From positions 62,001-126,000 of the forward strand of contig NZ_SMAA01000002.1 of the NCBI RefSeq assembly GCF_004341685.1: a DNA stretch of 64,000 nt. The letters run 5' to 3'. Position numbers and translations under genes: made by a program. This stretch comes from Pectinatus cerevisiiphilus. Lineage in GTDB: Bacteria > Bacillota > Negativicutes > Selenomonadales > Selenomonadaceae. Positions 1 through 38,734 of this stretch are shown piece after piece. The notes under the pieces were generated by a model that saw only the letters and a program-made list of their open reading frames with translations, had not been told where the DNA came from and did no database searches. How positions within the stretch are numbered: position 1 is the first letter of the stretch; each line of letters begins with the position of its first letter.

Positions 1-3000
1 AGAACCGGTGGTCTGTCCTGTAAATTGTTTGTCCATATAATTCCATTCTATAAAAGTATTTAGTTTATTCTTAGGCCAGAGGTAATCAAGCCGGGCATTT
101 ATTACCCATTCCGGTGTATAGGAAATAGAAGTTTTATAGGATGCGCTGCTTCCTACACTACGCAGGGCATCAGCACCGGAGTATTCAGGTTTTTGCCAAG
201 TGGCGGCAAGATTGAGCGTGGTGCGGTGCCATTTCATATTATGGGTGAGTTCGATGCCGTGGATTTTTGCTTCATCCATCGGGAAATAGGTACTATGGGA
301 ATTCGGAACCACCGGTGTCCAGAGAGCAAACTGATTTTTTGCCCGGCGTTGGAACCATGTTAATACGGTGTCGGTATCAGCACCGGCTAATTTACCCTGC
401 CAATTTAGGCTGAAATCAAACTGGGTACCGTGTTCCCAGGTATTGCCGCCTCGTGTATCGAAAAATTCACCAGCACCAGCATTCGGTGCAATCGTTGCGC
501 CATCACCAAATAATTCGTAGAAATTTGGGTGGCGGTTATAGGTTCCCCAGGTCGTTTTGAAGCTCCAATGGTCGTTGAGCTGCTTTTGCAGGGCGGCACC
601 ACCTGAATACTTCCAGGAACGGTCATTATTGCTCATTGTCTGCATATCGACTTTGTCCAGGCGTATGATAGGTGTGAACTTAAAATCACCGGCATCGTTG
701 AGGGTAATGGTGTCCTGGATGTTGAAATGGTATTCATTTATTTTATACTGGTGTATGTATTGTAGACCGAGGTTTTCTAACATACTCCAATAGGTTTTTC
801 TGCCGCTGACATCGGCATCCATCGTTTCACGGCTCATATCACCGTGTATTTCCAATAGATGGTTGGCACCCATTTTATAACTGCTGTCCATGGCCAGATT
901 CCATTTTTTGGAGTGGTAATGAGCCCAGAGACCACCGGGAGAGGTAATATCCTGCATGCCACCGTTGGCTTCCGGATTTTTTATACCTGCATCCTGTAAC
1001 GCCTGGTAACGTTTATAATAACCTGTATTGAGATAATCTTTTTTGTTATCGAGGTAGCTCAACTGCCAGCCAAAGTCAAGCTTGCCGAAAGTATCGCGTC
1101 GGCCAACGAGAAATTCTTTTTGGTGTGTATCTTGTGTGCTGTCCCAAAATCCTTTTTCATAATTTTCTGGCCGCCAGTAAAGTAATGTTGCAGGCAAAAG
1201 CGGATCAGGAGGAAGATTTTTGTCAAAGAGCTCACCAACATTGGCAGGAAGGTTTTCGTGTAAATCTTTCCAGGATATTTTTGCCATCCAGTGATCGTCC
1301 TGCCACTTGAGCATGCCGTTATTATTTTGGTAACCATTGCTTTGGCGTTTTATATTCTGTGGGTCACCGCCTGCCATATTTGGATACAAATAATGAGGTG
1401 TAAAATCGTAGTCACCCCGCCAAATATCACGCTGGTAGGTAGCCAGCAGGCTGCCATCGCCAAGTGGTGTCGTCAGTTGGTAGGTACCGTTATAGCCACC
1501 ATAGGATTTAAAGCCCTGGGTTATGGAGCCGCCTAGTTTATTCGGTTTTTTGGTGACGATATTGATGACGCCGCCGATCGGTGCACCGGCAAAACGGGCT
1601 GGCACATAGCCGCGGTATACTTCGATACGTTCGACATTATCGACCGGCAATGCGGATAAATTGACGGCGCTTTCACCGTTGAGGTTCATCGGCACACCAT
1701 CGACATAAACGTTGACTTGTGCACCGGTAGCACCACGCACGCGGGCTACCGTATAATGTCCTGTGCCGGATACTTTCTGGACATAAAGGCCGGGGACGCT
1801 CTGTAACATAGCCGGCAGATCTTTTTGTTCACCTTTGTATTGGTCTGTATAAACAACGGATACCTGTCCCGGACTTAGCTGGTTTTCCCATTCGGGGCGT
1901 TTGGCTTCTACTGTGACACTGCCAAGATCAAAGGAAGGCATTCCTGTAGTATTATTATCAGTAGAAGAAACAGCGGGTGCTGTTTGAACCTGTTGTGGTT
2001 CTGTATTGTCTGTTGTTGCTATGGCTGTTGAAGAAACTGTAGTCGGTGATGGAGCTATCGGCTGAGTCGGTTTGTTTTCGTTAACTACCGCGGTAGAGTT
2101 TACTTTAGCAGCGGGAACTGGCTGAGCAAGTTTTTCAGTGGAGATATTGTTCCCTGCGGGAGCACCGATGACCATAGTAGGTGTGTGGGCATTACTATAG
2201 TTTGATATATTTTCTGCCGGTTGGTTTTCTCCGTTTACGACGGCTGTTTTAGCAGCTGTTTTTTTCCGGCTGGGAGCGCCAAACCCGTCCCAGGTGAAAT
2301 CAAGCCGTCCATTGATGCTCCAGTTGTTGCCCGTATTTTGTCCCGCTGTCCTAGCAAATTCCAGATTGAGTTTACCATTAGGGGAAATGCGGTAATCAGT
2401 GCCTAGTTTTAACTCCAGCCAAGTATCATTACCATTGTTTGTGGCAATAGGACGCTGCTGGTAACCGTAAAAGGCATTTATATCCTGGTCACCGGCAAAC
2501 TCATGCATAAGACCGACGCTGCCATAGACATCACCCCTTGTGCCAATGTCACGACCCATGCGCAGGCGCAGCCGTCCGGTAGTATTATTGTAAGATTTCT
2601 GGTCGATGCCGAGATGGTTGCTGAGCTTATAATGGGTGGAGTCAACAGTACCGAAGAAGAGCGCAGCCGCCGGTTCATACCACCAACCACCGCTTAATTC
2701 ATTGCGTTTGCCGTATTGGATGCCGGCATTATATCCCCAGGCACTGTAATCACCTGTTACCTTACCACTGGCACCGGTGCCATCACCAAGATTGGCATAG
2801 ATATTGTAGTCATTGCTGAGGCGGTCGGCCGTGATGCCGGCATCAAGGAAATGCCCCTTATCACCTACCCAGCTGCCATATATACCTACAGCCATACTGT
2901 CCTGGTTGCCGCTGCCCGCGGAAGTGCCGGAGCTGCCCTTTACTTTGCTCAGGAAAAACCCCGTATAAACTTTGCCGTTATAAAACTTTTTGTTTAAAAG

Positions 3001-4998
3001 CTTATCGTAGCCACCCTGCCAGCCTGTGTAATTTTGGCTCAGGCTGTTACCATAAGCGCCACTGCCGTTTAGCTTGCCATGCCATACCTGTCCCCAGGTA
3101 TTTTCGTGGCCGTCGGGGACATCCTTTTTATAGCGGGCGTGCAGGTCGTCAGTACGGCGGAACATATTGAGATAATTTTCCCGCCAGAGGTTATGTGTCA
3201 GCAGTGAATTGTCGCTGACTGCTTTACCGGTACTGGACATCTCTCCTGTGTCGGCAAAACTGTAACCGCTTAGGTACCAAGCTGTCCCTGTCTTATTGGC
3301 AGGATTATTGGGATCGGTAAAATAATTGTCTGCTTTGACTATGTATGGCGTTATCTCATAAGTGCTGAATACACCGTCAGCCAGTGATTTTCTGGCAAGT
3401 ACATTGAAATATTGGTCACCGTGCAAAATACCTACTAATACCGGTACGTTGCCTTTTTCCACAGAATAATTGTCTTTGTTGAGGATTACATCACCGGCAG
3501 GCAGGATACCAATACCGGGCACCCAGCCCAGCTCGATGTACAGATCGGTCTTGCCGCCGCTGGCTGGGGCGGCATCGGTTATATAGACACTGTCTGTATG
3601 GCCGCTGCTGAACTTCATTGCTGAGTTGTAGTCGTTTGGAGTCACATAACCAAGGTCGTAGTTGTAATCAATGGAACCTGAACTGGGATTTCTTCCTTTA
3701 TGCTGTAAGGAGGCATCCATGACATAGTTACCAAGACGGAAGGTGGTGCCTTCACCCAGGGAGGCATTGTCCACATACATGATACGGTTGGGATTAAGGG
3801 CATAGCCATGATATTTGTCTGTCGGGTTACCATTCTCATCGAGATAAAAACCATTGTCATAGGCTGAATAAACGAGTGAATTATAACCACCAACTGTATT
3901 GGCATAGGTCAGGTCAATGACGGAGTTTTTTCCTGTAGTTAAGTTACCCACAGTTATTGCAGTATATTGGTTGTCGGCAACTGGAGTTTTATGATCCGTT
4001 ACGGCAGTGTTGTCCCAGCTAACATCACCTGTTTGACCTGTATCATCTACTACATTACCATTGGCATCTAGGTTCCAATATTGGGGAACTGTTACTTTAT
4101 CATTAAAAAGGCCTGTCTGTGATTGTACATATATAACCCTGTCCATAGGCCGCCAACGGCTGCCGTTGCTAATATTCTTTGAATCATATGAGTGGGCAGG
4201 TGTTGATGTATTTGAATTAAATGATCGATTGTTTTTAAAGAGTTCCCAGTTTTGGGTGGGTAACGAGTCAGAGGATATGTTACTGATATTATCATCTGAT
4301 ACAGTAAGTGCATCTGAGTTCCAACCTGAGGTAGGGATATCCTTGATTTTTGATAGGTCATTGATTTTGGCAAGCTGGAAGTTAGGCAGGTATTTTTTTA
4401 GAAAATCTTTTAATTTGTCTTGGTCACCTGATTTTATAATATCGTATAATTCTTTTTGGCGGTTAGCGGTCAGTAAATCGCTGGTACCATTCCCAGTTTC
4501 ATCATTAACAAAATTACGGAGAATCAGCTCAAGGTTAACCGCTGTTCCTAGTGTCGTCTTACCGTCTGTTGCATAAGCTACACGTTTGTTGCCATTGACA
4601 TCAGTAAAGATAATAGCATTGTAATCACTACCGGTCTTACTATTTATAGCTTTTATTAAAGCAGGAAATCCTAAACCAAACCCATCTTTTCCTTGCAATT
4701 GATAATCATTGCCATCGTAATTTGTAATTGCATTACCAGCGATTTGTATAACATTGGCGGTACCATTTACATCATTGGCACTGGTTATGTTTCTATCACT
4801 AAAAGCATCTTCGGATCTACCTTGGTTATTATCTGTTAACTGACCATTTGTATCGCTGACATCTGTTACCTCGTCAGCTGCCCATGCTTTTGGCATGTAG
4901 ATTGTTACCCCTAATGATAAGGCTATCAGTAGAGGCAGCAGATTCCTTTTATTATGGTATAAATGATTGTTCTTGGCAGTGTTTTTAATTCTGTTCAT
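1..4998 (-). CDS. Autotransporter-TonB-dependent receptor fusion, copy 1 (3' end beyond window)
   Basis: An outer-membrane protein, open from the ATG at 4998 to the window edge (1666 codons). Aligned with copy 2 at 8617-13878, about 80 C-terminal residues are missing. Order: signal peptide ending near 'PKAWA', autotransporter passenger (about residues 40-650), autotransporter beta-barrel (about 650-905), Pro/Thr-rich linker, a TonB-box-like 'SVTVEAKR' (near 1035), plug, and TonB receptor barrel. The passenger should be displayed outside while the receptor imports a ligand using TonB energy. Two cobalamin riboswitches upstream make a corrinoid the likely ligand (inference). The frame relation to copy 2 is constant throughout, so I see no frameshift. 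From the plug onwards it is nearly identical to copy 2; the N-terminal 200 residues are more diverged. Confidence 0.88.
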   Translation of the reverse strand, partial: MNRIKNTAKNNHLYHNKRNLLPLLIALSLGVTIYMPKAWAADEVTDVSDTNGQLTDNNQGRSEDAFSDRNITSANDVNGTANVIQIAGNAITNYDGNDYQLQGKDGFGLGFPALIKAINSKTGSDYNAIIFTDVNGNKRVAYATDGKTTLGTAVNLELILRNFVNDETGNGTSDLLTANRQKELYDIIKSGDQDKLKDFLKKYLPNFQLAKINDLSKIKDIPTSGWNSDALTVSDDNISNISSDSLPTQNWELFKNNRSFNSNTSTPAHSYDSKNISNGSRWRPMDRVIYVQSQTGLFNDKVTVPQYWNLDANGNVVDDTGQTGDVSWDNTAVTDHKTPVADNQYTAITVGNLTTGKNSVIDLTYANTVGGYNSLVYSAYDNGFYLDENGNPTDKYHGYALNPNRIMYVDNASLGEGTTFRLGNYVMDASLQHKGRNPSSGSIDYNYDLGYVTPNDYNSAMKFSSGHTDSVYITDAAPASGGKTDLYIELGWVPGIGILPAGDVILNKDNYSVEKGNVPVLVGILHGDQYFNVLARKSLADGVFSTYEITPYIVKADNYFTDPNNPANKTGTAWYLSGYSFADTGEMSSTGKAVSDNSLLTHNLWRENYLNMFRRTDDLHARYKKDVPDGHENTWGQVWHGKLNGSGAYGNSLSQNYTGWQGGYDKLLNKKFYNGKVYTGFFLSKVKGSSGTSAGSGNQDSMAVGIYGSWVGDKGHFLDAGITADRLSNDYNIYANLGDGTGASGKVTGDYSAWGYNAGIQYGKRNELSGGWWYEPAAALFFGTVDSTHYKLSNHLGIDQKSYNNTTGRLRLRMGRDIGTRGDVYGSVGLMHEFAGDQDINAFYGYQQRPIATNNGNDTWLELKLGTDYRISPNGKLNLEFARTAGQNTGNNWSINGRLDFTWDGFGAPSRKKTAAKTAVVNGENQPAENISNYSNAHTPTMVIGAPAGNNISTEKLAQPVPAAKVNSTAVVNENKPTQPIAPSPTTVSSTAIATTDNTEPQQVQTAPAVSSTDNNTTGMPSFDLGSVTVEAKRPEWENQLSPGQVSVVYTDQYKGEQKDLPAMLQSVPGLYVQKVSGTGHYTVARVRGATGAQVNVYVDGVPMNLNGESAVNLSALPVDNVERIEVYRGYVPARFAGAPIGGVINIVTKKPNKLGGSITQGFKSYGGYNGTYQLTTPLGDGSLLATYQRDIWRGDYDFTPHYLYPNMAGGDPQNIKRQSNGYQNNNGMLKWQDDHWMAKISWKDLHENLPANVGELFDKNLPPDPLLPATLLYWRPENYEKGFWDSTQDTHQKEFLVGRRDTFGKLDFGWQLSYLDNKKDYLNTGYYKRYQALQDAGIKNPEANGGMQDITSPGGLWAHYHSKKWNLAMDSSYKMGANHLLEIHGDMSRETMDADVSGRKTYWSMLENLGLQYIHQYKINEYHFNIQDTITLNDAGDFKFTPIIRLDKVDMQTMSNNDRSWKYSGGAALQKQLNDHWSFKTTWGTYNRHPNFYELFGDGATIAPNAGAGEFFDTRGGNTWEHGTQFDFSLNWQGKLAGADTDTVLTWFQRRAKNQFALWTPVVPNSHSTYFPMDEAKIHGIELTHNMKWHRTTLNLAATWQKPEYSGADALRSVGSSASYKTSISYTPEWVINARLDYLWPKNKLNTFIEWNYMDKQFTGQTTGS

Positions 4999-5208: not shown

Positions 5209-5347
5209 TTTTCTGTTCGGCGGATAAATGCAGCCAGGTTTTTAATAAAAAGGGATAACCTTAATAGACCTCTTCATACACAGTTTTGTGATGGTTCGGT
5301 TTGGCTGTATTTATCCGCCCGTCTTTCGCAGGTTTATATGGATGCTG

Positions 5348-5505
5348 AAAACAGTTGGTGCTCCGACTCGGTATCAATATTTATCTGCCCCTTTGCAAGA
5401 GGTTCCTTTTAGGATTGGCAGATGAACTACTCCTTACGGTTGCGGGACAGCTCCGGTTTTGCACCGGATTCCCCATAAAAATTCTTTGTTAGAATTACCT
5501 GTTTT
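5348..5505 (-). ncRNA. Cobalamin riboswitch B (second of a tandem pair)
   Basis: The minus strand shows GGGAATCCGGTGCAAA, a complementary CCGGAGC, then GTCCCGCAACCGTAA, which is the conserved cobalamin core with a variant B12 box. A GAGTCGGAGCACC element lies near the 3' end, and the outer stem can form from AAAACAG and CTGTTTT. It is clearly different in sequence from riboswitch A and has no counterpart upstream of copy 2. Confidence 0.82.
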
Positions 5506-5533
5506 CCATTAATTCTGTTATTAAATTGGCGGT

Positions 5534-5567: not shown

Positions 5568-5672
5568 TATAACGGCACATTTCGTTTACGACAGTAAAAG
5601 ATAATACTGCCGGTACGAAATCCCCTCCCCATCGTTCGTAGGTATAAGCATCAATGATGCTAACGGTGATTG

Positions 5673-5826
5673 TCAAACAGGCAGTTCTTCTGGCTCGGAT
5701 TCATTGCTCATCACACCTTCTCGGGAAAACTCCCAATGGTATCTTGTGATTTGCTCGTCCTTACAGCGGCGGGACCGCTCCGGCTTTGTACCGGATTCCC
5801 TATTAAGCCCTTACGGGCACCTGTTC
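5673..5826 (-). ncRNA. Cobalamin riboswitch A (first of a tandem pair)
   Basis: Minus strand: AGGTGCCC..GGGCTTAATAGGGAATCCGGT, CCGGAGCGGTCCCGCC, GCTGTAA, then GAGCCAGAAGAACTGCCTGTTT. These are the canonical pieces of an adenosylcobalamin-type riboswitch, closed by AACAGG / CCTGTT. It controls the receptor gene at 1-4998 with its own terminator. The copy at 14247-14400 is nearly identical. Confidence 0.93.
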
Positions 5827-5880
5827 CCAATTTACTAAATATCATTAATAGTTATATAAACAATAACTATCGACTAACTA

Positions 5881-6320: not shown

Positions 6321-6938
6321 TCAGGAGTTTTCATCTTCCCGTTTTAATTGTCCCAAGGGTACTTGTTGCAAGGTCTGCCACATTAATTCAGCAAAGCTGT
6401 GTTCGGGTATAGGTTTCCATGCAGATTTCGTTGCCGTTTCTGCAAGTAGGCGGCCTTTATCTGTGTAAACGTCAGTTTTTAATTCACGGTACAGTTTACC
6501 ATGCATGTTAAATAATAATGTTTGTACACAATAGGCTGTCTTTTCGTCTTTTCCCAGTTGGGCTGCATACAGTGTCATATTAAAATAGTCAAGAAGTTTT
6601 TCATTGACAAAGAAAGTCTTTATATCTACCTGTAAAATGTTTTTATCTGTATTACCGAAAGGATCTTTCGTCGCAAAGATTCTGTTTTTGTCAAAATAAT
6701 AGATACCAATAGAATTGTCCATGAGTTGTGTCCAACGTAATGCTTCTTTTTCCGCAGCCGTTTCGGCAGGAGGAAGAACACTTATCTGCCAGTTCAGGGC
6801 ATCATTTTGGGCGTCTTCTGCATAGACAGAACCGGGATATAATAAAAAAATAGCAAATAATATTACGAAATATTTATGTAGATAATATTTTTGGGAAAAA
6901 GATGTGTTTTCAGTGTTTTTTATAGAAGTTTTTTGCAT
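6321..6938 (-). CDS. Small exported protein, last gene of the copy-2 receptor operon
   Basis: I do not recognise the family with certainty. The 205-residue product begins 'MQKTSIKNTENTSFSQ', followed by a hydrophobic segment (about 24-40) ending in 'VYAEDAQ', a probable signal peptide; the mature part is about 165 residues with one cysteine. The start was placed at 6938 because AAAGGTGAAG precedes it, and because the in-frame upstream ATG at 6998 lies in a hairpin. Its pattern (short exported, W and YYD motifs near the N-terminus, 'YRELKTDVYTDKG') resembles the small surface-adhesin-E-like proteins common in Negativicutes; this is tentative. It follows the propeller gene in the same orientation and is probably co-transcribed. 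Its own upstream region is part of a 161-bp tandem duplication. Confidence 0.7.
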   Translation of the reverse strand: MQKTSIKNTENTSFSQKYYLHKYFVILFAIFLLYPGSVYAEDAQNDALNWQISVLPPAETAAEKEALRWTQLMDNSIGIYYFDKNRIFATKDPFGNTDKNILQVDIKTFFVNEKLLDYFNMTLYAAQLGKDEKTAYCVQTLLFNMHGKLYRELKTDVYTDKGRLLAETATKSAWKPIPEHSFAELMWQTLQQVPLGQLKREDENS

Positions 6939-7250
6939 GATGTTAGCCACTTCACCTTTATTAAAATTTGCCGCACTAGTATAGGTATAGTGCGGCAAAG
7001 TATGGTAGTGTAGGGTAGTACTTATAAATATAGTTATTGATTTGGAACGTTTGTAAACGTTATCAAGTTTTGCCGAACTTTTTCAGAAGTTCTTTGCATG
7101 ATGTTGACCATTTTACCTTTATTAAAATTTGCCGCACTAATACAGTGCATAGTGCGGCAAAGTATGGTAGTGTATGGTAATATTTATAAATATGGTTACT
7201 GGCTTGAGGCGTTCGTAAACGTTATCAAGCTTTGCCGAACTTTTTGAGGA
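6934..7250. repeat. 161-bp tandem duplication at the junction of two genes
   Basis: The stretches starting near 6936 and 7097 match at a constant offset of 161 bases. Each contains a TTTGCCGCACT...AGTGCGGCAAA hairpin (6967-6999; 7128-7161), the ATGCAAARAACTTC start of the small exported gene, and the 3' end of the propeller gene. The inner unit therefore holds a start-codon remnant joined to a propeller-tail remnant reading ELLKKFGKT and stop. The hairpins may act as weak terminators or mRNA-end structures. Confidence 0.85.
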
Positions 7251-8517
7251 TTTCGCGCGGCAACATGATTTTGGCAAACTTGGTATGTCCACCACTTACA
7301 GCAGAACGGGATACACCGGCGGCCGCTGAATAAGGGATGACAACGGAGGCTGTGTTGAGCTGACCATAGGCAGTGGAAATGCCTAATCCTTGGGAGTCAC
7401 TGCTGTGGTCATTGGCATTGGCTCTTAATGTCAATGCAGTAGAGCTCATGTCCACGGCAGTATCAATAGTATAGACTAGTTTACCGGCAACAAACCAGAG
7501 AACTGCACCGTCATAAGCAAGCAACCACGTAGCACCAGATTCAACGGTGGCTGTGTAGTCACTGCTTCCGTCGAAAGTACCGTTAGTATATAAGCTTGAC
7601 TGCGGTGCTTTGACAAGTCTGTAGGTATACTGGGAAAAGTCATCGTTATAATTGGCTGTTAATACGTAAGCATCGCTGCCGACTAAAGCAACATCGATAT
7701 AATCACCAGTTTTTACAGGTGCTTCTTTGGGACCGATAGTTTGGATGACACTATTTTTTCCAAAATCAACAATCTGCAATTCTGAGGTATAGGGGCTGCC
7801 ATTATTACCACCAGCATTTTGGGGGCCACCATAACTGGTTATATAAGCATGGGTTCCAGCAGCGTCAATATTGAGCGAATTGGCATTGGTATTTAAGTTG
7901 TAAGTATTAATGGTTTTTCCGGAAAAATCAAGAATGACTAACTGTGAATCACCGTAATTAGCATAACTGCCGTCATCATTGATAAATAAGGCAGCGATAT
8001 AATCAGTGCCATCTATCGTTACTTTATCCATATCGACACCATGACCTTTTTTCCCTGCAAGCGGTGTATAAGTGTAAAAGGTGCTGGTGTAGGTGTAATC
8101 AGTCATATCTATTTTGACAATGGTATTTTGGTCGTAACCCATAATATACATGTCATTGCCATTGGTGACGATGCTGTAGGGGTTAGATGTTTGCCAGTTA
8201 TTACTGGTGGTGTCATCATTCGAAAAATATTTGTTAGGATCGAGTGTCCAGGTGCCCGCTACAGTTGGGTCAAAGACACCGTACTTTGTAAGACTATTAC
8301 TGAGATCATAATCGGCAACTAATGCTTTATTTGTGCTGCTTTGTTTAAAACTGAGTACACGCGGGTCATGGGTTTTAAACGGATCCTTGTCGATTTCGGT
8401 AACGACACCGGCATGCACTGCGCCGGTGCTGTCTACCTGGCTGATTGCCCCGTTTTGATTGGACGAAACATTGTAATCATTCATTACACCTGTTGCTAAT
8501 ACTGATGGATTGGCCAT
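7225..8517 (-). CDS. Propeller-like protein without signal peptide, between receptor and exported protein
   Basis: A 430-residue protein rich in Tyr, Asn, Asp, Thr and Gly with repeated beta units of the type 'SQLVILDF...GKTINTYNL' and 'SELQIVDFGKNSVIQTI', which suggests a beta-propeller; no family is assigned. The start is firm (AAAGGAGG ten bases before ATG), yet the N-terminus MANPSVLATGV has no signal peptide or lipobox. It starts 99 bases after the receptor-fusion stop and should be under the same cobalamin riboswitch. In Bacteroides a surface propeller (BtuG) binds B12 for the TonB receptor BtuB; an analogous partner role is an inference from position and fold only. How it would leave the cytoplasm is unexplained. 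The 3' end is duplicated downstream as a short remnant. Confidence 0.72.
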   Translation of the reverse strand: MANPSVLATGVMNDYNVSSNQNGAISQVDSTGAVHAGVVTEIDKDPFKTHDPRVLSFKQSSTNKALVADYDLSNSLTKYGVFDPTVAGTWTLDPNKYFSNDDTTSNNWQTSNPYSIVTNGNDMYIMGYDQNTIVKIDMTDYTYTSTFYTYTPLAGKKGHGVDMDKVTIDGTDYIAALFINDDGSYANYGDSQLVILDFSGKTINTYNLNTNANSLNIDAAGTHAYITSYGGPQNAGGNNGSPYTSELQIVDFGKNSVIQTIGPKEAPVKTGDYIDVALVGSDAYVLTANYNDDFSQYTYRLVKAPQSSLYTNGTFDGSSDYTATVESGATWLLAYDGAVLWFVAGKLVYTIDTAVDMSSTALTLRANANDHSSDSQGLGISTAYGQLNTASVVIPYSAAAGVSRSAVSGGHTKFAKIMLPREILKKFGKA

Positions 8518-8616: not shown

Positions 8617-11600
8617 TTAAAATTTGTATTCAAGCGTCATATAATATGAACGACCGGACAGTGGGTAAGCCGGTGTATTTGTCTCGATACTACCGTCGGC
8701 CATATAGTGTATATCAAAAACATCTTTTCCCCTGTTGAACAGATCATTTACACCGGCAGACAATGTCCAGTCTTTATTGAATTTATACTTGGCACCCAGG
8801 TCAAAAGTAGAAAGGCTGCTCATCCAGTATCGTTCTCTGGCATCAGAAGTACTGCTGCCTATGAATTGACGGTCAAGGTAGTTATATTCAATAAAGGTGT
8901 TGAGTTTATCACCAGGCCAGAGGTAATCAAGTCGGGCATTTATTACCCATTCTGGTGTATAGGAAATAGTCGATTTCATTGACATACCGGCGTCCGCTAT
9001 AGAAGATTCATCTGAGTACTCAGGTTTTTGCCAAGTCGCGGCAAGATTAAGGGTAGTGCGTTTCCATTTCATATTATGGGTGAGTTCAATGCCGTGGATT
9101 TTTGCTTCATCCATTGGGAAATAGGTACTATATGAATTTGGTAGCATTGGCGTCCAGAGGGCAAACTGATTTTTTGCCCGGCGTTGGAACCATGTTAATA
9201 CGGTGTCGGTATCGGCACCGGCTAATTTACCCTGCCAGTTCAGGCTGAAATCAAACTGGGTACCGTGTTCCCAAGTACTACCGCCTCGTGTACCGAAAAA
9301 TTCACCGGCACCGGCATTCGGTGCGATCGTTGCGCCATCACCAAATAATTCGTAGAAGTTCGGGTGGCGGTTATAAGTGCCCCAGGTTGTCTTAAAGCTC
9401 CAATGGTCGTTGAGCTGCTTTTGCAGGGCGGCACCGCCTGAGTATTTCCAGGAACGGTCATTATCGCTCATTGTCTGCATATCGACTTTGTCCAGGCGTA
9501 TGATAGGGGTGAACTTAAAATCACCGGCATCGTTGAGGGTGATCGTGTCCTGGATGTTGAAATGGTATTCATTGATCTTATACTGGTGTATATATTGCCG
9601 GCCTAGGTCTTGCAACATTTCCCAATAGGTTTTTCTGCCGCTGACATCGGCATCCATCGTTTCCCGGCTCATATCCCCGTGTATTTCCAATAGATGGTTG
9701 GCACCCATTTTATAACTGCTGTCCATGGACAGATTCCATTTTTTGGAGTGGTAATGTGCCCAGAGACCACCGGGAGAGATAATATCCTGCATGCCAAGGA
9801 CGGATTCCGGATTTTTTATACCTGCATCCTGTAACGCCTGGTAACGTTTATAATAACCTGTATTGAGATAATCTTTTTTGTTGTCGATGTAACTCAACTG
9901 CCAGCCAAAGTCAAGCTTGTCGAAAGTATCACGCCGACCAACGAGAAATTCTTTTTGGTGTGTATCTTGTGTCTTGTCCCAAAAACCTTTTTCATAATTT
10001 TCTGCATCAAAGGCGAGTAATGTTTGAGGCAAATAGGGTTCAAAAGGAAGGTTTGGGCCAAAATTCTTACTAACATTGGCAGGAAGCTCTTCATGTAAGT
10101 CTTTCCAGGATATTTTTGCCATCCAGTGATCGTCCTGCCACTTGAGCATGCCGTTATTATTTTGGTAACCATTGCTGGTACGTTTTATGTTATCAGGGGC
10201 ACTCTTTCCATCGAGAAAGATATACTGTGGTTTGAAATTATAATCGCCCTTCCAGATATCACGCTGGTAGGTAGCCAGCAGACTGCCGTCACCGAGCGGT
10301 GTCGTCAGTTGGTAGGTACCGTTATAACCACCATAGGATTTAAAGCCCTGTGTTATGGAGCCGCCTAGCTTATCCGGTTTTTTGGTGACGATATTGATGA
10401 CGCCGCCGATCGGTGCACCGGCAAAACGGGCTGGCACATAGCCGCGGTATACTTCGATACGTTCGACGTTATCGACCGGCAGTGCAGATAAATTGACGGC
10501 ACTTTCACCGTTGAGGTTCATTGGTACACCATCGACGTAAACATTGACCTGTGCACCGGTAGCACCACGCACACGGGCTACCGTATAGTGCCCTGTGCCG
10601 GATACTTTCTGGACATAAAGTCCAGGAACACTTCGTAACATGGCAGGCAGATCTTTTTGTTCACCTTTGTACTGGTCTGTATAAACAACGGATACCTGTC
10701 CCGGGCTTAGCTGGTTTTCCCATTCGGGGCGTTTGGCTTCTACTGTGACACTGCCAAGATCAAAGGAAGGCATTCCTGTTGTAGTATTATCGGTAGATGT
10801 ATTATTAGTAGAAGAAACAGCGGGTGCTGTTTGAACCTGCTGTGGTTCTGTATTGTCTATTGTTGCTGCAGCCGTTGAAGAAGCTATCGGTTGGGCTGGT
10901 TTATTTTCATTAACTACTGCGGCAGAATTTACTTTAGCGGTAGAGCTTATTTTAGTAGTAGGAACTGTTTGGGCAGGTTTTTCAGTGGAAATCTTGTTTT
11001 CTGCGGGAGCACCGATGACCATAGTAGGTGCGTGGGCATTACTATAGCTTGGTGCATTTTCTGTCGGTTGGTCTTTTCCATTTACGACGGCTGTTTCAGG
11101 AGTTGTTTTAGCAGCCGTTTTTTTCCGGCTGGGAGCGCCAAACCCGTCCCAGGTGAAATCAAGCCGTCCATTGATGCTCCAGTTATTACCTGTATTTTGT
11201 CCCGCTGTCCTAGCAAATTCTAGATTGAGTTTACCATTAGGGGAAATGCGGTAATCAGTGCCGAGTTTTAATTCCAGCCAAGTATCGTTGCCATTGTTCG
11301 TGGCAATAGGACGCTGCTGGTAACCGTAAAAGGCATTTATATCCTGGTCACCGGCAAACTCATGCATAAGACCGACACTGCCATAGACATCACCCCTTGT
11401 GCCGATGTCACGACCCATGCGCAGGCGCAATCGTCCAGTAGTATTATTGTAAGATCTCTGGTCAATGCCGAGATGGTTACTAAGCTTATAATGGGTGGAG
11501 TCAACGGTACCGAAGAAGAGCGCAGCCGCCGGTTCATACCACCAACCACCGCTTAATTCATTGCGTTTGCCGTATTGGATGCCGGCATTATACCCCCAGG

Positions 11601-13878
11601 CACTGTAATCACCGGTTACCTTACCACTGGCACCGGTGCCGTCACCAAGATTGGCATAGATATTGTAGTCATTGCTGAGGCGGTCGGCTGTGATGCCGGC
11701 ATCAAGGAAATGCCCCTTATCGCCTACCCAGCTGCCATATATACCCACAGCCATACTGTCCTGGTTGCCGCTGCCTCCGGAAGTGCCGGAGCTGCCCTTT
11801 ACTTTACTCAGGAAAAACCCCGTATAAACTTTGCCGTTATAAAACTTTTTGTTTAAAAGCTTATCGTAGCCACCCTGCCAGCCTGTGTAATTTTGGCTCA
11901 GGCTGTTACCATAAGCGCCACTGCCGTTTAGCTTGCCATGCCATACCTGTCCCCAGGTATTTTCGTGGCCGTCGGGGACATCCTTTTTATAGCGGGCGTG
12001 CAGGTCGTCAGTACGGCGGAACATATTGAGATAATTTTCCCGCCAGAGGTTATGTGTCAGCAGTGAGTTATCGCTGACTGCCTTACCAGTATTGGACATC
12101 TCTCCTGTGTCGGCAAAACTGTAACCGCTTAGGTACCAGGCTGTCCCTGTCTTATTGGCAGGATTATTGGGATCAGTAAAATAATTGTCTGCCTTGACTA
12201 TGTATGGCGTTATCTCATAAGTGCTGAACACACCGTCAGCCAGTGATTTTCTGGCAAGTACATTGAAATACTGACCGCCGTGTAAAATACCTACTAATAT
12301 CGGTACATTACCTTTTTCGACAGAAGCATCATCTTTGTCGAGGATTACATCACCGGCGGGCAGGATACCGACGCCGGGCACCCAGCCTAGTTCGACATAA
12401 AGATTGGTCTTGCCACCACCGCTGGCTGGGGCGGCATCAGTTATATAGACGCTGTCTGTATTGCCGCTTCTGAACTTCATTGCCGAGTTGTAGTCGTTTG
12501 GAGTCACATAGCCATAATCGTAGTTGTAATCATTGGAACCTGAACTGGGATTTCTTCCTTTATGCTGTAAGGAGGCCTCCATGACATAGTTACCAAGACG
12601 GAAGGTGGTACCTTCACCTAAAACGGCATTGTCCACATACATGATACGGTTGGGATTAAGGACATAGCCATGATATTTGTCTGTCGGGTTACCGTTCTCA
12701 TCGAGATAAAAACCATTGTCATAGGCTGAATAAACGAGTGAATTATAACCGCCGACTGTGTTGGCATAGGTTAGGTCAATGACGGAGTTTTGTCCTGTAG
12801 TTAAGTTACCCACAGTTATTGCAGTATATTGGTTGCCGGCAACTGGAGTTTTATGGTCCGTTACGGCAGTGTTGCTCCAAGTAATATCACCTGTTTGATC
12901 TGGAGCTTCTACTACATTACCATTGGCATCTATGTTCCAAGATGGGTGGACTTTCACTGTATCATCAAAAAGGCCTGTCTGGGAGTTTACATATATAACC
13001 CTGTCCATAGGCCGCCAACGGCCGCCATTACTAATATTCTTTGAATCGTATGAGTGGGCAGGTGTTGATGTATTTGAATTAAATTTTTGGTTGGGGGAGA
13101 CAGCGAGACCCCAGTTTTGGGTAGATAACGAGTCAGGTGCTATATCACTGATATTATCGTCTGATACAGCAAGTGCATCTGGGTCCCAACCTGAGGCAGG
13201 AAGGTCCTTGATTTTTGATAGGTCATTAATTTTGGCAAGCTGGAAGTTAGGAAGGTATTTTTTTAGGAATGCGGCTAAAGCATTAGAGTCTTTTGATTTA
13301 ATAATATTGTATAATTCTTTCTGGCGGTCAGCGGTCAGTAAATCGCTGGTACCATTTCCAGTTGGATCGTCAAAATAAGCTGAGATAATCTGGTCGGCAG
13401 AATACCCCTCTATTGATATCTTACCGTCTGTTGCATAAGCTACACGTTTACGGCCATTGGCATCGGTAAAAATAATGGCATTGTAATCACTACCAGTCTT
13501 ACTATTTACCTCTTTTAACAAATCTGGTAATGCAGGTTTGTTACTGAAAGGATTCTTACTTGCGGCAATCTCATAAGAGGTGCCTTCATATTTTATTGTT
13601 GTTTTAAATGCATCGCCAGTAACTTGTATGGCATTGGCGGTACCACTTACATCATCGGCACTGGTTATATTTTTAGCACTAAAAGCATCTTCGGAACTGC
13701 CACGGCTATTATCTGTTAATTGACCATTTGTATCGCTGGCATTTGTTATTTCATCATCTGCCCATGCCTTTGGCATGGAGATTGTTACTCCTAGGGATAA
13801 GGCTATCAGTAAAGGCAGCAGCTTTTGCTGATAATGGTATAAAGTATTATTTTTTACAGTATTTTTAATTCTGTTCAT
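8617..13878 (-). CDS. Autotransporter-TonB-dependent receptor fusion, copy 2 (complete)
   Basis: 1753 residues, far longer than a typical TonB receptor (600-900). Signal peptide (1-40, ending PKAWA); passenger (about 41-660); autotransporter barrel (about 660-912, with 'YTGFFLSK', 'YSAWGYNAGIQYGKRNELSG' and 'GRLDFTW'); Pro/Thr/Asn-rich linker (about 913-1035); TonB-box-like 'SVTVEAKR' (about 1043); plug (to about 1165, with 'NVYVDGVPMNL', 'RIEVYRGYVPARF' and 'GGVINIVTKKP'); second barrel ending in the outer-membrane signature 'YYMTLEYKF'. Plug and linker would both be periplasmic, so the topology is feasible. One cobalamin riboswitch with terminator precedes it; the propeller gene follows after 99 bases. 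Corrinoid transport is inferred from the riboswitch. No TonB/ExbBD is encoded in the window. Confidence 0.93.
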   Translation of the reverse strand: MNRIKNTVKNNTLYHYQQKLLPLLIALSLGVTISMPKAWADDEITNASDTNGQLTDNSRGSSEDAFSAKNITSADDVSGTANAIQVTGDAFKTTIKYEGTSYEIAASKNPFSNKPALPDLLKEVNSKTGSDYNAIIFTDANGRKRVAYATDGKISIEGYSADQIISAYFDDPTGNGTSDLLTADRQKELYNIIKSKDSNALAAFLKKYLPNFQLAKINDLSKIKDLPASGWDPDALAVSDDNISDIAPDSLSTQNWGLAVSPNQKFNSNTSTPAHSYDSKNISNGGRWRPMDRVIYVNSQTGLFDDTVKVHPSWNIDANGNVVEAPDQTGDITWSNTAVTDHKTPVAGNQYTAITVGNLTTGQNSVIDLTYANTVGGYNSLVYSAYDNGFYLDENGNPTDKYHGYVLNPNRIMYVDNAVLGEGTTFRLGNYVMEASLQHKGRNPSSGSNDYNYDYGYVTPNDYNSAMKFRSGNTDSVYITDAAPASGGGKTNLYVELGWVPGVGILPAGDVILDKDDASVEKGNVPILVGILHGGQYFNVLARKSLADGVFSTYEITPYIVKADNYFTDPNNPANKTGTAWYLSGYSFADTGEMSNTGKAVSDNSLLTHNLWRENYLNMFRRTDDLHARYKKDVPDGHENTWGQVWHGKLNGSGAYGNSLSQNYTGWQGGYDKLLNKKFYNGKVYTGFFLSKVKGSSGTSGGSGNQDSMAVGIYGSWVGDKGHFLDAGITADRLSNDYNIYANLGDGTGASGKVTGDYSAWGYNAGIQYGKRNELSGGWWYEPAAALFFGTVDSTHYKLSNHLGIDQRSYNNTTGRLRLRMGRDIGTRGDVYGSVGLMHEFAGDQDINAFYGYQQRPIATNNGNDTWLELKLGTDYRISPNGKLNLEFARTAGQNTGNNWSINGRLDFTWDGFGAPSRKKTAAKTTPETAVVNGKDQPTENAPSYSNAHAPTMVIGAPAENKISTEKPAQTVPTTKISSTAKVNSAAVVNENKPAQPIASSTAAATIDNTEPQQVQTAPAVSSTNNTSTDNTTTGMPSFDLGSVTVEAKRPEWENQLSPGQVSVVYTDQYKGEQKDLPAMLRSVPGLYVQKVSGTGHYTVARVRGATGAQVNVYVDGVPMNLNGESAVNLSALPVDNVERIEVYRGYVPARFAGAPIGGVINIVTKKPDKLGGSITQGFKSYGGYNGTYQLTTPLGDGSLLATYQRDIWKGDYNFKPQYIFLDGKSAPDNIKRTSNGYQNNNGMLKWQDDHWMAKISWKDLHEELPANVSKNFGPNLPFEPYLPQTLLAFDAENYEKGFWDKTQDTHQKEFLVGRRDTFDKLDFGWQLSYIDNKKDYLNTGYYKRYQALQDAGIKNPESVLGMQDIISPGGLWAHYHSKKWNLSMDSSYKMGANHLLEIHGDMSRETMDADVSGRKTYWEMLQDLGRQYIHQYKINEYHFNIQDTITLNDAGDFKFTPIIRLDKVDMQTMSDNDRSWKYSGGAALQKQLNDHWSFKTTWGTYNRHPNFYELFGDGATIAPNAGAGEFFGTRGGSTWEHGTQFDFSLNWQGKLAGADTDTVLTWFQRRAKNQFALWTPMLPNSYSTYFPMDEAKIHGIELTHNMKWKRTTLNLAATWQKPEYSDESSIADAGMSMKSTISYTPEWVINARLDYLWPGDKLNTFIEYNYLDRQFIGSSTSDARERYWMSSLSTFDLGAKYKFNKDWTLSAGVNDLFNRGKDVFDIHYMADGSIETNTPAYPLSGRSYYMTLEYKF

Positions 13879-14110: not shown

Positions 14111-14142
14111 ACAAAAAAACCTTCATCTACAATAGATGAAGG
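14111..14142 (-). terminator. Intrinsic terminator of the copy-2 cobalamin riboswitch
   Basis: Minus-strand stem CCTTCATCTA / TAGATGAAGG followed by a run of seven T. It matches the terminator at 5534-5567. Confidence 0.88.
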
Positions 14143-14246
14143 CTATAACGACGCATTCCGTTTACGACAGTAAATAATACTGCCGGTACGAAATCGCCTC
14201 CCCATCGTTCGTAGGTGTAAGCATCAATGATGCTAACGGTGATCGT

Positions 14247-14441: not shown

Positions 14442-14470
14442 ATGATAATATTTAAAAAGTCCACTGTCAA
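14442..14470 (-). promoter_or_regulatory. Sigma-70-type promoter for the copy-2 receptor operon
   Basis: Minus strand: -35 TTGACA at 14470-14465, 17-bp spacer, -10 TATCAT at 14447-14442, about 40 bases upstream of the riboswitch. Confidence 0.65.
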
Positions 14471-14782
14471 TACATATACATACATATTATTAAGTACATT
14501 AAAATACGATTTGTTATTATATGACTATAAAATGCTTACTTATTTTACAATATTAACATTTCTACAAATATAAAGTATTACTTTATAACTACATAACTTT
14601 AAAATGTCTACTGATTCTATAAAGGCAACACACTAATTAATATCATTAGTAAGATCGAAAGTTTGTATATCATTGTAGAGGTAAAATTAAAAATAATGTT
14701 GAAATAAAAAGTAATATGTAGTACTATAATAATATAAGCAGTAACAATATGTTACTACACTTAAAAAGATCATTAATAGCAG
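14471..14782. other. Divergent intergenic region between two riboswitch leaders
   Basis: No reading frame of note. A possible promoter for the rib leader lies on the plus strand: TTGAAA at 14699-14704, 17-bp spacer, TACTAT at 14722-14727. The rest is AT-rich and unassigned. Confidence 0.45.
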
Positions 14783-14888
14783 TCTTTGGGGCAGGGTGAA
14801 ATTCCCTACCGGCGGTAAAGCCCGCGAGCCTTTTTGGCAGATTCGGTGTAATTCCGAGGCCGACAGTATAGTCTGGATGGAAAAAGAT
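14783..14888 (+). ncRNA. FMN riboswitch (RFN element)
   Basis: GGGGCAGGGTGAAATTCC, CCGGCGGTAAAGCCCGCGAG, GGTGTAATTCC and CCGACAGTATAGTCTGGATG appear in the conserved order. It lies upstream of the riboflavin operon and should reduce rib expression when FMN is abundant, by way of the terminator at 14969-15009. Confidence 0.96.
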
Positions 14889-14968
14889 TGTGTGGTTTTG
14901 TTGGTAAACTGACGAGATTAGCACATTGATTTATTCCGTTTGAATGTAATTGATTTTATTTTGCCGCT

Positions 14969-15009: not shown

Positions 15010-15036
15010 GCCGGTATAATGGGAGGCTATGTTACG

Positions 15037-16134
15037 ATGGATGATGATGAGCGATATATGCGAATGGCACTGGAATTGGCAAAAAATGCTGAGGGCAGAA
15101 CCAGTCCCAATCCTATGGTCGGGGCTGTCATAGTAAAAGATGGTCGTGTAGTTGGCTGCGGTTGGCATAGAAAAGCGGGCACTCCGCATGCAGAGGTGCA
15201 TGCTCTTGCCGCGGCAGGAGAACTTGCAAAGGGTGCTGTTATTTATGTTAGCCTTGAACCCTGCTCCCATTTTGGTAGAACACCGCCATGCTGCGATGCA
15301 TTGATAAAGGCTGGTATAAAGCGTGCCGTTATAGCTATGGAGGACACTAATCCCAAAGTATCTGGCCGCGGCATAAAAAGAATGCGTGCTGCCGGCATTG
15401 AAGTAGTAACCGGTATATTGGCAAATGAAGCCAGAAAATTGAATGAAGTATTTTTTAAATGGATAGAAAAAAAGATGCCTTTTGTTACTATTAAAAGTGC
15501 TATGACGTTGGATGGGAAAACAGCTACCTGTACTGGTCAGTCAAAATGGATTACCAGTGAGCAATCGCGGCAATACGGACACCGGTTGCGCGATATAAAC
15601 GATGCAATTATAGTGGGCGTAAATACGGTTATTGCAGACAATCCTTCGCTTACTACAAGGCTTGGCGAAAATGGGAAAAATCCTCTGCGGGTTGTTGTTG
15701 ACAGTTGCGGCCGAATCCCGCTGGACAGTAAATTGCTCAATGATGGGGAAGCTCCTGTGTTGCTAGCGGTGACAGTAAAGGCACCAAAAGAGCGTTTGAA
15801 AGCGTTAGCTGATAAAAATGTCCAATTGATTGAAACCAAGGCTGATGCAAATGGGCGTGTTTGTTTACCAGAACTGTTTATGAAACTGGCACAGCAGGAT
15901 ATATGCAGTGTTTTGGTAGAAGGCGGCGCAACGCTTATGGGAAGTATAATAAAAGAAAAATTGGCAGATAAAGCATATTTTTTCATAGCACCTAAATTAG
16001 TCGGTGGAGAAAAAGCAAAATCCGCTGTTGCTGGTGAAGGTATCGGTAATCTAAGTGATGCTGCACAGCTCACTGAAGTTTTCACAGATATCTTGGATGG
16101 CGGGGATATTTTGGTGAAAGGGTACCTGAGGTGA
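15037..16134 (+). CDS. ribD: Bifunctional riboflavin biosynthesis deaminase/reductase RibD
   Basis: 365 residues. The N-terminal half is a zinc cytidine-deaminase-like domain with H51-A-E53 and PCSHFGRTPPC (Cys76, Cys85), which deaminates the pyrimidine intermediate. The C-terminal half (about 148-365) is the NADPH-dependent reductase domain. An in-frame ATG at 15019 exists, but GGGAGG at 15021-15026 is the ribosome binding site for the ATG at 15037, so the later start is chosen. First gene of an FMN-riboswitch operon; ribE begins four bases after its stop. Confidence 0.95.
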   Translation: MDDDERYMRMALELAKNAEGRTSPNPMVGAVIVKDGRVVGCGWHRKAGTPHAEVHALAAAGELAKGAVIYVSLEPCSHFGRTPPCCDALIKAGIKRAVIAMEDTNPKVSGRGIKRMRAAGIEVVTGILANEARKLNEVFFKWIEKKMPFVTIKSAMTLDGKTATCTGQSKWITSEQSRQYGHRLRDINDAIIVGVNTVIADNPSLTTRLGENGKNPLRVVVDSCGRIPLDSKLLNDGEAPVLLAVTVKAPKERLKALADKNVQLIETKADANGRVCLPELFMKLAQQDICSVLVEGGATLMGSIIKEKLADKAYFFIAPKLVGGEKAKSAVAGEGIGNLSDAAQLTEVFTDILDGGDILVKGYLR

Positions 16135-16138
16135 CTTT

Positions 16139-16792
16139 ATGTTTACAGGAATAATTGAAGAAGTAGGCCATATAGCAGCAATTAAAAATGGAACGGCGTC
16201 TGTTCGGCTGACGATAGCGGCCGAAAAGGTTTTGAGGGATGTCAATATAGGTGACAGTATCGCGGTTAATGGTACTTGTCTTACAGTCACGCAGTATACG
16301 GATAAAAGTTTTTCGGCAGATGTCATGCCGGAGTCGGTCAGAAAGACTTCGCTGAGTGAGTTGAAAACAGGCAGCCTTGTTAATTTGGAAAGGGCACTGC
16401 AAGTTGGGGCACGGCTTGGCGGCCATATTGTAAGCGGCCATATTGACGGTACAGGAAAATTGATAAGCAAGAAACCAGAAGATAATGCCATCATAGTGGC
16501 AATCAGTGCTGCTAAGGATATATTGAAATATATTGTCAAAAAAGGCTCGGTAACAGTGGATGGTATTAGCCTGACAGTAGTTGATGTTGACAGCAGTAAG
16601 TTTTCTGTATCGCTTATTCCGCATACGGCTTCAATAACGACTATAGGCCAGAAAAGTACAGGTGCATCGGTAAATATAGAAACAGATATCCTAGGAAAAT
16701 ACGTAGAGAAACTGCTTTTTCTGCGTGAAACTGAGGGAACACCACAGCCTTCCGGGATTGATATAAATTTTTTGAGTAAAAATGGTTTTTGA
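16139..16792 (+). CDS. ribE: Riboflavin synthase alpha chain
   Basis: 217 residues starting MFTGIIEEVG, the usual start of the family. The two lumazine-binding repeats are visible (about 1-96 and 97-195, the second containing 'DGISLTVVDV'). It dismutates two 6,7-dimethyl-8-ribityllumazine molecules to riboflavin. It lies tightly between ribD and ribBA. The symbol follows Bacillus usage (ribC in E. coli). Confidence 0.95.
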   Translation: MFTGIIEEVGHIAAIKNGTASVRLTIAAEKVLRDVNIGDSIAVNGTCLTVTQYTDKSFSADVMPESVRKTSLSELKTGSLVNLERALQVGARLGGHIVSGHIDGTGKLISKKPEDNAIIVAISAAKDILKYIVKKGSVTVDGISLTVVDVDSSKFSVSLIPHTASITTIGQKSTGASVNIETDILGKYVEKLLFLRETEGTPQPSGIDINFLSKNGF

Positions 16793-16866
16793 AAAGCTTT
16801 GGGATGTTTCATAACGGCTGAACAGCCGATCCTATAAATATTATCTTACGAAAAGAGGCTCTTTTA

Positions 16867-18078
16867 ATGGAAATAAAATTTGATTCGGTAGAAAAAGCAA
16901 TAGAAGATTTTAAAAATGGTAAAATGGTGTTGGTTGTAGATGATGAAAATAGAGAAAATGAAGGGGATTTACTTGCTCCCGCAGAATTGGTCACACCAGA
17001 AATAGTGAATTTTATGGCCACTTATGCCAAAGGGCTTATTTGTATGCCTATGGATGCTGCCCTTATTGATAAAATGGAACTTGCTCCTATGGTTGAACAC
17101 AATACAGATAATCATGAAACTGCATTTACTGTTTCTGTTGACCATGTTGATACCACTACAGGAATTTCTGCTTTTGAACGGGCATTGACGGTTAAAAAGA
17201 TGATGGAAGATGATATCAAGCCAACGGATTTGCGTCGTCCCGGACATGTTTTTCCGCTGCGTGCTGTTGAAGGCGGTGTGCTGCGGCGTACCGGACATAC
17301 GGAAGCAACCGTTGATTTGGCGAGGTTGGCAGGTTTAAAACCGGCTGGACTTTGCTGTGAAATAATGAGTGCGGACGGACATATGGCACGCACACCAGAG
17401 CTGTATGAATTTGCTAAAAAGCATGGCTTATCATTTATAACAGTAGCGGCATTGATAAAATACCGTAAGAGCACAGAATGTTTTGTGAAGAGAGTGGCGG
17501 AAGCTGACTTTCCGAGCAAGTATGGCAAATTTAGAATAGTCGCTTATGAAAATCAACTTGATGATAAATGTCATATTGCTATTGTTAAGGGCGATGTCCG
17601 TGGGAAAAAGAATGTGCTTGTGCGTGTTCATTCAGAATGCTTGACTGGGGATATCCTCGGTTCAATGCGCTGCGATTGCGGTGAACAGTTGGCTGAGTCA
17701 CTACGCCGCATCGAAGCGGAAGGGGAAGGCGTTGTGCTGTATATGCGGCAGGAAGGGCGCGGTATTGGCCTTGCCAATAAGATACGTGCTTATGCTTTGC
17801 AGGATCAAGGCAAGGATACAGTAGAAGCCAATATTATGCTGGGCTTTGCACCTGATATGCGTGATTATGGTATTGGCGCACAGATTTTAGCTGATCTTGG
17901 CCTTACGAGCATTCGTTTGATGACAAATAATCCAGAAAAAAGAGCAGGACTGGAAGGATATGGTCTAAAAATTGTGGAAAGAGTACCTATTGAAATTCCT
18001 GCTAATGATTTTGACGCAAAATATCTCAAGACAAAGAGAGAAAAAATGGGACATCTCTTAAATAATGTCCGGGGCTGA
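16867..18078 (+). CDS. ribBA: Bifunctional DHBP synthase / GTP cyclohydrolase II
   Basis: 403 residues, the normal length of the fused enzyme. The RibB domain (about 1-200) has the acidic metal-binding stretch [10 protein letters not shown]. The RibA domain (about 205-403) has the zinc cysteines in '[17 protein letters not shown]' and the 'RQEGRGIGL' motif. It supplies both precursors of riboflavin. A 74-base gap with a small hairpin (ACGGCTGAACAGCCG) separates it from ribE; AAGAGG precedes the ATG. Confidence 0.96.
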
Positions 18079-18146
18079 AATATTTAATAGAAGCTATAGT
18101 TTGTTCCTTAATTAATTTAAAAAGTATTTATGTGGAGGTTGGCATT

Positions 18147-18611
18147 ATGGCAAAGGTTATTGAAGGTCATTTATCGGCAAAAGGTTTGAAATTTGGAATA
18201 GTAGTGGCTCGTTTTAATGAGTTTATAACTAATAAATTACTTTCGGGAGCGCTTGATACATTGAACCGGCACGATGCGGCTGAAGAAGATGTGACTGTAG
18301 CATGGGTACCAGGAGCATTTGAAATACCATTAGTCGCTAAAAAGATGGCACAAAGTGGTAAATATAATGCTGTCATTTGCCTGGGTGCTGTTATCCGCGG
18401 AGCGACGACGCATTATGACTATGTTTGCAATGAAGTATCTAAAGGTGTTGCTGCTGTAGGGCTTTCTACCGGTGTACCAACACTTTTCGGTGTTGTGACA
18501 ACAGAAAACATTGAACAGGCCATCGAACGCGCCGGCACAAAGGTTGGCAATAAGGGTGCTGATGCGGCTATGGGTGCCATAGAAATGGCAGATTTGCTCA
18601 GAAAGATGTAA
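18147..18611 (+). CDS. ribH: 6,7-dimethyl-8-ribityllumazine synthase
   Basis: 154 residues, with '[15 protein letters not shown]' and '[14 protein letters not shown]', the substrate-binding and catalytic region of lumazine synthase. The ATG at 18147 is preferred over the in-frame GTG at 18132 because GGAGG at 18134-18138 is its ribosome binding site. Last biosynthetic gene of the riboflavin operon. Confidence 0.96.
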
Positions 18612-38611: not shown

Positions 38612-38633
38612 ACAAGCTGTAATTGAATATGAA

Positions 38634-38720
38634 ACGAGGGAGCCTATAAAATAGGCTGAGAAAGGGCTGTGAGCACCTGACCTTTGACCTGATCGGGATA
38701 ATGCCTGCGTAGGGAGTTTG
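38634..38720 (+). ncRNA. TPP riboswitch (THI box)
   Basis: AGGGAGCC..GGCTGAGA and the conserved CCTTTGACCTGATCGGGATA, ATGCCTGCGTAGGGA occur in order. It sits in front of thiS and should shut the operon off when thiamine pyrophosphate is present. Confidence 0.96.
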
Positions 38721-38734
38721 TTTTTGAATGCGTA

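Follow-up and report, generated by a model that had tools for sequence, protein, structure and literature searches.

The window, that is the whole stretch of 64,000 nucleotides of Pectinatus cerevisiiphilus analysed here, carries a single open frame of 1753 aa (copy A, 8617..13878) in which an autotransporter is fused to a TonB-dependent receptor; window coordinates are on the minus strand unless marked (+), and positions prefixed C2 refer to the contig holding the window. The frame starts with a Sec signal peptide recognised by eye in the translation (residues about 1–40, 13759..13878), MNRIKN..LLPLLIALSLGVTISMPKAWA|DD with cleavage near AWA|DD, and continues into a passenger of residues about 41–600 (12079..13758), which was delimited from the translation and the comparison of copies and matches no Pfam or NCBIfam family. 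A 12-strand autotransporter barrel with its pore helix follows (residues about 601–910, 11149..12078), where Autotransporter PF03797 matches residues 642–887 with 8e-31 and 108 bits, over the curated Pfam cut-off, and NCBIfam TIGR01414 (autotrans_barl) matches residues 575–910 with 107 bits. The barrel terminates in ..NGRLDFTW and leads into a linker of about 125 residues (about 911–1035, 10774..11148) that should be flexible and periplasmic from the model and from its composition, 70% of its residues being A, P, S, T, G, N or Q. The next segment, residues 1036–1165 (10384..10773), contains the TonB-box-like sequence LGSVTVEAKRP (about 1040–1050), which is conserved among relatives, and a plug with PF07715 at residues 1058–1160 (2.9e-17), and the rest is a BtuB-like receptor barrel (residues 1166–1753, 8620..10383) with TonB_dep_Rec PF00593 at residues 1281–1713 (1.3e-27), both over their curated cut-offs; the whole protein terminates in ..YMTLEYKF. 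The domain searches thus confirm the fusion in one frame that had been proposed in a sequence-only reading of this DNA, and the signal peptide and the two C-terminal ends it named, GRLDFTW for the barrel and Phe for the receptor, are present in the translation. The first barrel had been taken for an autotransporter domain, and this holds by PF03797 and TIGR01414 and by a structure model of the fragment 560–1753, which shows the pore helix (fragment residues 37–69) and 12 strands, followed by a disordered linker. The design is topologically sound, since the periplasm is where an autotransporter barrel has its C terminus and where a TonB receptor has its N-terminal plug side.

Like the type Va autotransporters VmaA-C of Veillonella (PMC7549365), copy A has a signal peptide and a passenger, both judged by eye from the translation, a PF03797 barrel of 12 strands and a pore helix, but the barrel is internal instead of at the extreme C terminus, with 843 residues beyond it, and the fused barrels form a clade of their own. 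Multibarrel outer-membrane proteins are a known class (Solan et al. 2021, PNAS, as cited in PMC11494523), and the copy A chain is, like GfcD (PMC11494523), predicted from Pfam, NCBIfam and Foldseek to have more than one membrane beta-barrel; the pairing here is of a type Va autotransporter with a TonB-dependent receptor. Our literature search, which covered few subscription papers so that absence is weak evidence, found no description of an autotransporter-TonB receptor fusion and no paper linking autotransporters to cobalamin riboswitches, in agreement with the earlier reading, whose author knew of no characterised example, even though the multibarrel class itself was already known.

The plug and the barrel of a 22-strand receptor are recognised through PF07715, PF00593 and Foldseek, while the receptor part of the fragment model has low confidence (mean pLDDT 57.8, pTM 0.49) and is too weak for the strands to be counted. 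Compared as a profile with the PDB, the receptor matches BtuB at 1e-20, on par with Cir, and Foldseek on the receptor model matched PirA, BtuB, Cir and related receptors. The siderophore uptake system XusA-XusB of Bacteroides (PDB 9gbc), also a TonB receptor with a partner, is among the structural matches; it differs in its siderophore cargo, in that XusB is a surface lipoprotein, and in having no fusion. The top-scoring receptor model was TIGR01779 (TonB-B12), with 106 bits against a cut-off of 599.7, and the receptor thus falls outside the BtuB equivalog.

The second copy of the same design that had been noted at 1..4998 is intact (copy B), with 1748 aa in full, and stops 248 bp past the edge of the window, at C2:61752. 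It is uninterrupted in the contig, is 86% identical to copy A across the full length, and is followed beyond the window by its own propeller gene (C2:60346-61653) and an Adhesin_E-like gene, the locus being duplicated in tandem. The only PF03797 domains in this genome are those of the two copies, which also hold two of its eight plugs. Between the copies the codons of the autotransporter barrel show 27 synonymous and 2 amino-acid-changing differences, and those of the plug 20 and 1, indicating that both halves are under purifying selection. The receptor barrel has 106 synonymous and 99 amino-acid-changing differences, the latter clustered in some segments, and the N-terminal part of the passenger is the most diverged region of all (residues 1–260, 68% amino acid identity, 31 synonymous against 80 amino-acid-changing differences). 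These differences indicate that both barrels are maintained, and that the parts which change are likely exposed.

A propeller gene of 430 aa is located 99 bp downstream of copy A (7225..8517), adjacent to the receptor gene as btuG is, and BtuG-like by model, Foldseek and profile. The product has no Pfam or NCBIfam match. It was modelled with a pLDDT of 83.5 and a pTM of 0.87, and the top Foldseek matches of the model are 8ptf, 3dsm, 8bai, 8okv, 8bn0, 8bmy and 8bmz, nearly all of them solved with cobalamin; 8ptf, 8bai, 8okv and 8bmy are cobalamin-bound BtuG structures. BtuG makes up most of the top 12 matches with E values from 1e-8 to 4e-7, which points to a BtuG fold for the modelled protein, with TM-scores that are moderate (0.5–0.65). 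BtuG is also the best PDB match of the sequence profile (E 1.1e-5), over a span of only about 70 residues. The lipoprotein signal and the anchoring Cys of BtuG are missing, as the start Met abuts the propeller domain, and no HlyD-type adaptor, which could have indicated a type I secretion route for such a signal-less propeller, scored above the cut-off in this genome. The genome has two propellers, both at this locus. Further downstream lies the gene of an exported Adhesin_E-like protein of 205 aa (6321..6938), with PF16747 at 23.3 bits, below the cut-off of 23.7, and its homologues recur at related corrinoid loci. The spacer between these two genes, window about 6880–7220, contains short repeats, and similar translated fragments occur there twice.

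Searched for alone, the propeller was found in 46 of 301 Negativicutes genomes, and the double-barrel profile, which has matches in 53 genomes, hits every one of these 46. It adjoins 24 of 27 Negativicutes fusions, and those at L168, L171 and L172 have no propeller adjacent. The start codon of the free propeller directly abuts the domain in most Negativicutes, and there is no signal peptide; those at L102, L105 and L178 have one. It had been suggested that the passenger could be a surface captor that passes the ligand on to the adjoining receptor; the theme of capture followed by import is likely to stand, but the adjacent BtuG-like propeller is a good candidate for the captor and by our analysis a better one than the passenger, for which no sign of ligand binding was found. 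That the fused passenger itself captures and transfers the ligand, the propeller being an accessory or active elsewhere, seems rather improbable. The variability of residues 1–260 is what would be expected of an exposed part facing a ligand or a partner, but no binding domain is recognised in the passenger by Pfam or NCBIfam, a gene for a BtuG-like binder stands next to most of the fusions, and the passengers differ between the long and the short fusion types, both of which keep the propeller.

Copy A is preceded by a cobalamin riboswitch (RF00174, 14236..14413, 113 bits) that lies 358 bp before the ATG, and copy B by two in tandem, one of 111.5 bits (5663..5839) and one of 58.9 bits (5336..5518), where the gathering threshold of the covariance model is 31.5 bits. 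Both copies thus have upstream the riboswitch that would be expected of a btuB gene. Directly 5' of the copy A riboswitch is a promoter-like sequence TTGACA-17-TATCAT (14442..14470), and a terminator-like hairpin with a T-run (14118..14144) is found between the riboswitch and the ATG, each by match to the consensus only; the hairpin is a possible expression platform. Twelve cobalamin riboswitches were detected in the 2.63 Mb of this genome, three of them at the fusion locus. Others, at C8:103929, C4:184361 and C19:22489 and 22161, directly precede three other TonB receptors, and five of the eight receptors in the genome therefore appear to be corrinoid-regulated. An FMN riboswitch of 125 bits is located at 14778–14892(+), ahead of a riboflavin operon that is divergent from the fusion gene and reads as ribD-ribE-ribBA-ribH (15019–18611(+)), and a TPP riboswitch of 69.1 bits at 38626–38732(+).

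All 27 Negativicutes fusion operons examined have one or more cobalamin riboswitches upstream, and such riboswitches also precede unfused relatives in Selenomonas, Sporomusa, Pelosinus and Synergistota. No riboswitch above the threshold was found in the locus DNA searched for two termite-gut fusions (L106 and L068). Genes for CbiZ, CbiK and methylmalonyl-CoA mutase, all corrinoid genes, are neighbours of the loci in relatives, as is an SbmA/BacA-like ABC transporter. The riboswitch of a gene named btuB2 in S. ovata answers to many corrinoids (PMC9600662). Cobalamin riboswitches stand ahead of the two copies and of all the Negativicutes relatives tested, which makes a corrinoid the very probable cargo, a strong assignment that we infer from the regulatory sequences. 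An iron compound or haem, imported together with the Adhesin_E-like protein and an FTR1/P19-like locus, is a most improbable cargo: the receptor is similar also to Cir and enterobactin receptors, and an FTR1/P19-like cluster with ABC transporter genes was seen by eye at C2:48001-54219 (L003), about 8–14 kb beyond the start of the window, but none of this accounts for a cobalamin riboswitch at every Negativicutes fusion, for the BtuG-like fold of the partner or for the corrinoid genes near the relatives. The iron or haem cargo was set aside in favour of a corrinoid on the riboswitches and the BtuG-like fold.

The census with the double-barrel profile gave 26 full-span, stop-free fusion frames of 1418–1853 aa, both window copies included, in 20 of 381 Negativicutes genomes, and with one further frame-split fusion (G160) there are 27 fusions in 21 of the 381 genomes and in 11 families, bearing out the recurrence in Negativicutes for which such a census had been advised. 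A scan of named genomes found the fusion in Sporomusa ovata, S. acidovorans, a Pelosinus MAG, Anaerospora hongkongensis, Phascolarctobacterium MAGs and others, and a phylum-wide draw of 399 genomes, few of them Negativicutes, gave zero additional fusions. A sequencing error joining two separate genes in both copies, named beforehand as a finding that would overturn the fusion, is absent, since the copies are uninterrupted, both barrels are under selection and 26 frames span the design. The fusion is rare in the family of the window, as it might be if neighbouring genes had been joined by a frameshift into something functionless, but two intact copies under purifying selection and full-span frames in 20 genomes make an artefact or a decaying gene practically negligible. 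Sequencing error, pseudogene and chance are excluded by the uninterrupted copies, the selection and the 26 stop-free frames.

The linkers of 26 relatives are 85–143 residues long with 57–76% A, P, S, T, G, N or Q; they show low conservation, are disordered by prediction and would be accessible to proteases in principle. The chain might thus be a polyprotein whose cleavage in the linker yields as much autotransporter as BtuB-like receptor, both of the ordinary kind, in which case the fusion would serve co-expression instead of tethering, and receptor and autotransporter are indeed separate adjacent genes in relatives. We regard such cleavage as unlikely, as the length of the linker is kept within the range given, not one intact member of the fused clade in Negativicutes is split at the linker, and the two frames that are split (L060 and one copy at L168) break within a barrel or plug.

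Almost all fused receptors share a single clade of the receptor tree with relatives from termite-gut MAGs, and on the autotransporter tree all fused Negativicutes barrels form one clade. A single grouping of all Negativicutes fusions on the receptor tree, a quick tree, is rejected with p 2e-87. The fusion at L178:5502-9944, where the propeller has a signal peptide, has an autotransporter half that groups with the others and a receptor half from a different clade, which rules out a single origin of all fusions; this placement, together with the one autotransporter clade, indicates that the receptor half was probably exchanged while the autotransporter half was retained. The parts are combined in other ways in relatives. 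The operons of Selenomonas and Phascolarctobacterium (L047-L056, L112-L117) share with this locus the wider receptor family, the propeller and, at L048 and L049, a cobalamin riboswitch, but there the receptor is unfused and the propeller is the N-terminal head of an autotransporter of 1700–4700 aa directly downstream of it, an arrangement found also in Sporomusa. In Synergistota the propeller has a Sec signal, with a Synerg-CTERM sorting domain in the member tested.

Because of the riboswitches, the pairing with the propeller, its predicted BtuG-like fold, the likeness of the receptor to BtuB and the corrinoid-gene neighbours, we read the locus as a corrinoid capture-and-import unit in which an autotransporter is joined to a BtuB-like receptor, with a probability of about 0.75. 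Several findings count against this reading, namely the failure of the receptor to reach the BtuB equivalog, the weak receptor half of the double-barrel model, the moderate TM-scores of the propeller and the short span of its sequence match to BtuG, the three fusions where it is missing, the absence of a signal peptide from almost all free propellers of Negativicutes, and the two termite-gut fusions where no riboswitch was found. In the capture-and-import unit, ample corrinoid would switch the operon off through the cobalamin riboswitch and scarcity would switch it on. The long fusion protein would be exported by Sec, and both the 12-strand autotransporter barrel and the BtuB-like barrel would insert in the outer membrane, tethered from the periplasmic side by the flexible linker, with the passenger displayed next to the TonB-powered receptor. 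The BtuG-like propeller from the neighbouring gene would bind the corrinoid at the surface and pass it to the BtuB-like receptor, which would import it with TonB. The joined autotransporter would then be a dedicated surface capture platform, plausibly with a role akin to that of the lipid anchor of BtuG in Bacteroides. The passenger might give the propeller, which is otherwise unanchored, a platform to dock on, a suggestion that we make only weakly. Tentative as well is the full picture of an uncut, tethered machine of two barrels, where the passenger docks the unanchored propeller over the receptor and the propeller comes to the surface by an undescribed route independent of a signal peptide; if true, this would place a capped TonB transporter outside Bacteroidota, one in which a protein platform replaces the lipid anchor.

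BtuG is the B12-binding lid of BtuB in the BtuB-BtuG complexes of Bacteroides, and lipoprotein-capped TonB transporters have been called seemingly exclusive to Bacteroidetes (PMC10404256). The locus resembles the BtuB-BtuG system (PMC10404256) in its riboswitch control, its BtuB-like receptor and the adjacent gene for a propeller with the BtuG fold, but it belongs to a different phylum, its receptor carries a fused autotransporter, and its propeller is no lipoprotein and in most cases comes without a signal peptide. BtuG-type corrinoid capture would thus extend past Bacteroidota, contrary to the suggested exclusivity (PMC10404256), and the fusion system appears to be an undescribed way of scavenging vitamin B12. 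An odd two-barrel architecture that is widespread, in 11 families of Negativicutes, would gain a specific and testable function. The capture domain would reach the surface variously, as an autotransporter passenger, with a Synerg-CTERM anchor, by Sec secretion or signal-less. The system would also open to experiment how a protein without signal peptide could act at the surface, and how BAM folds two different barrels per chain when one C-terminal strand is internal.

Outside Negativicutes, fusions are found in the termite-gut MAGs at L106:6239-10837, with PF03797 at 44.6 bits, and at L068:3888-8408, which is similar by eye. Three termite-gut Deltaproteobacteria MAGs (L069, L071, L072) have a related receptor with a C-terminal barrel like those of Opacity or OMP_b-brl, below the Pfam cut-offs in L069 and L071 and judged from frame length and tree position in L072, and these may be a second kind of double-barrel receptor. 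At ten corrinoid loci (L165, L166, L167, L169, L173, L174, L175, L177, L057 and L060) there are recurrent signal-less neighbours: a papain-like C1 peptidase of about 300 aa, a weakly CHAT-like protein of about 197 aa, a DUF2325-like protein of about 540 aa and a protein of about 375 aa with the motif DWFxNLF. They possibly constitute a corrinoid-regulated protease set, and at L173 a cobalamin riboswitch (1211–1394) lies directly ahead of the C1 peptidase gene.
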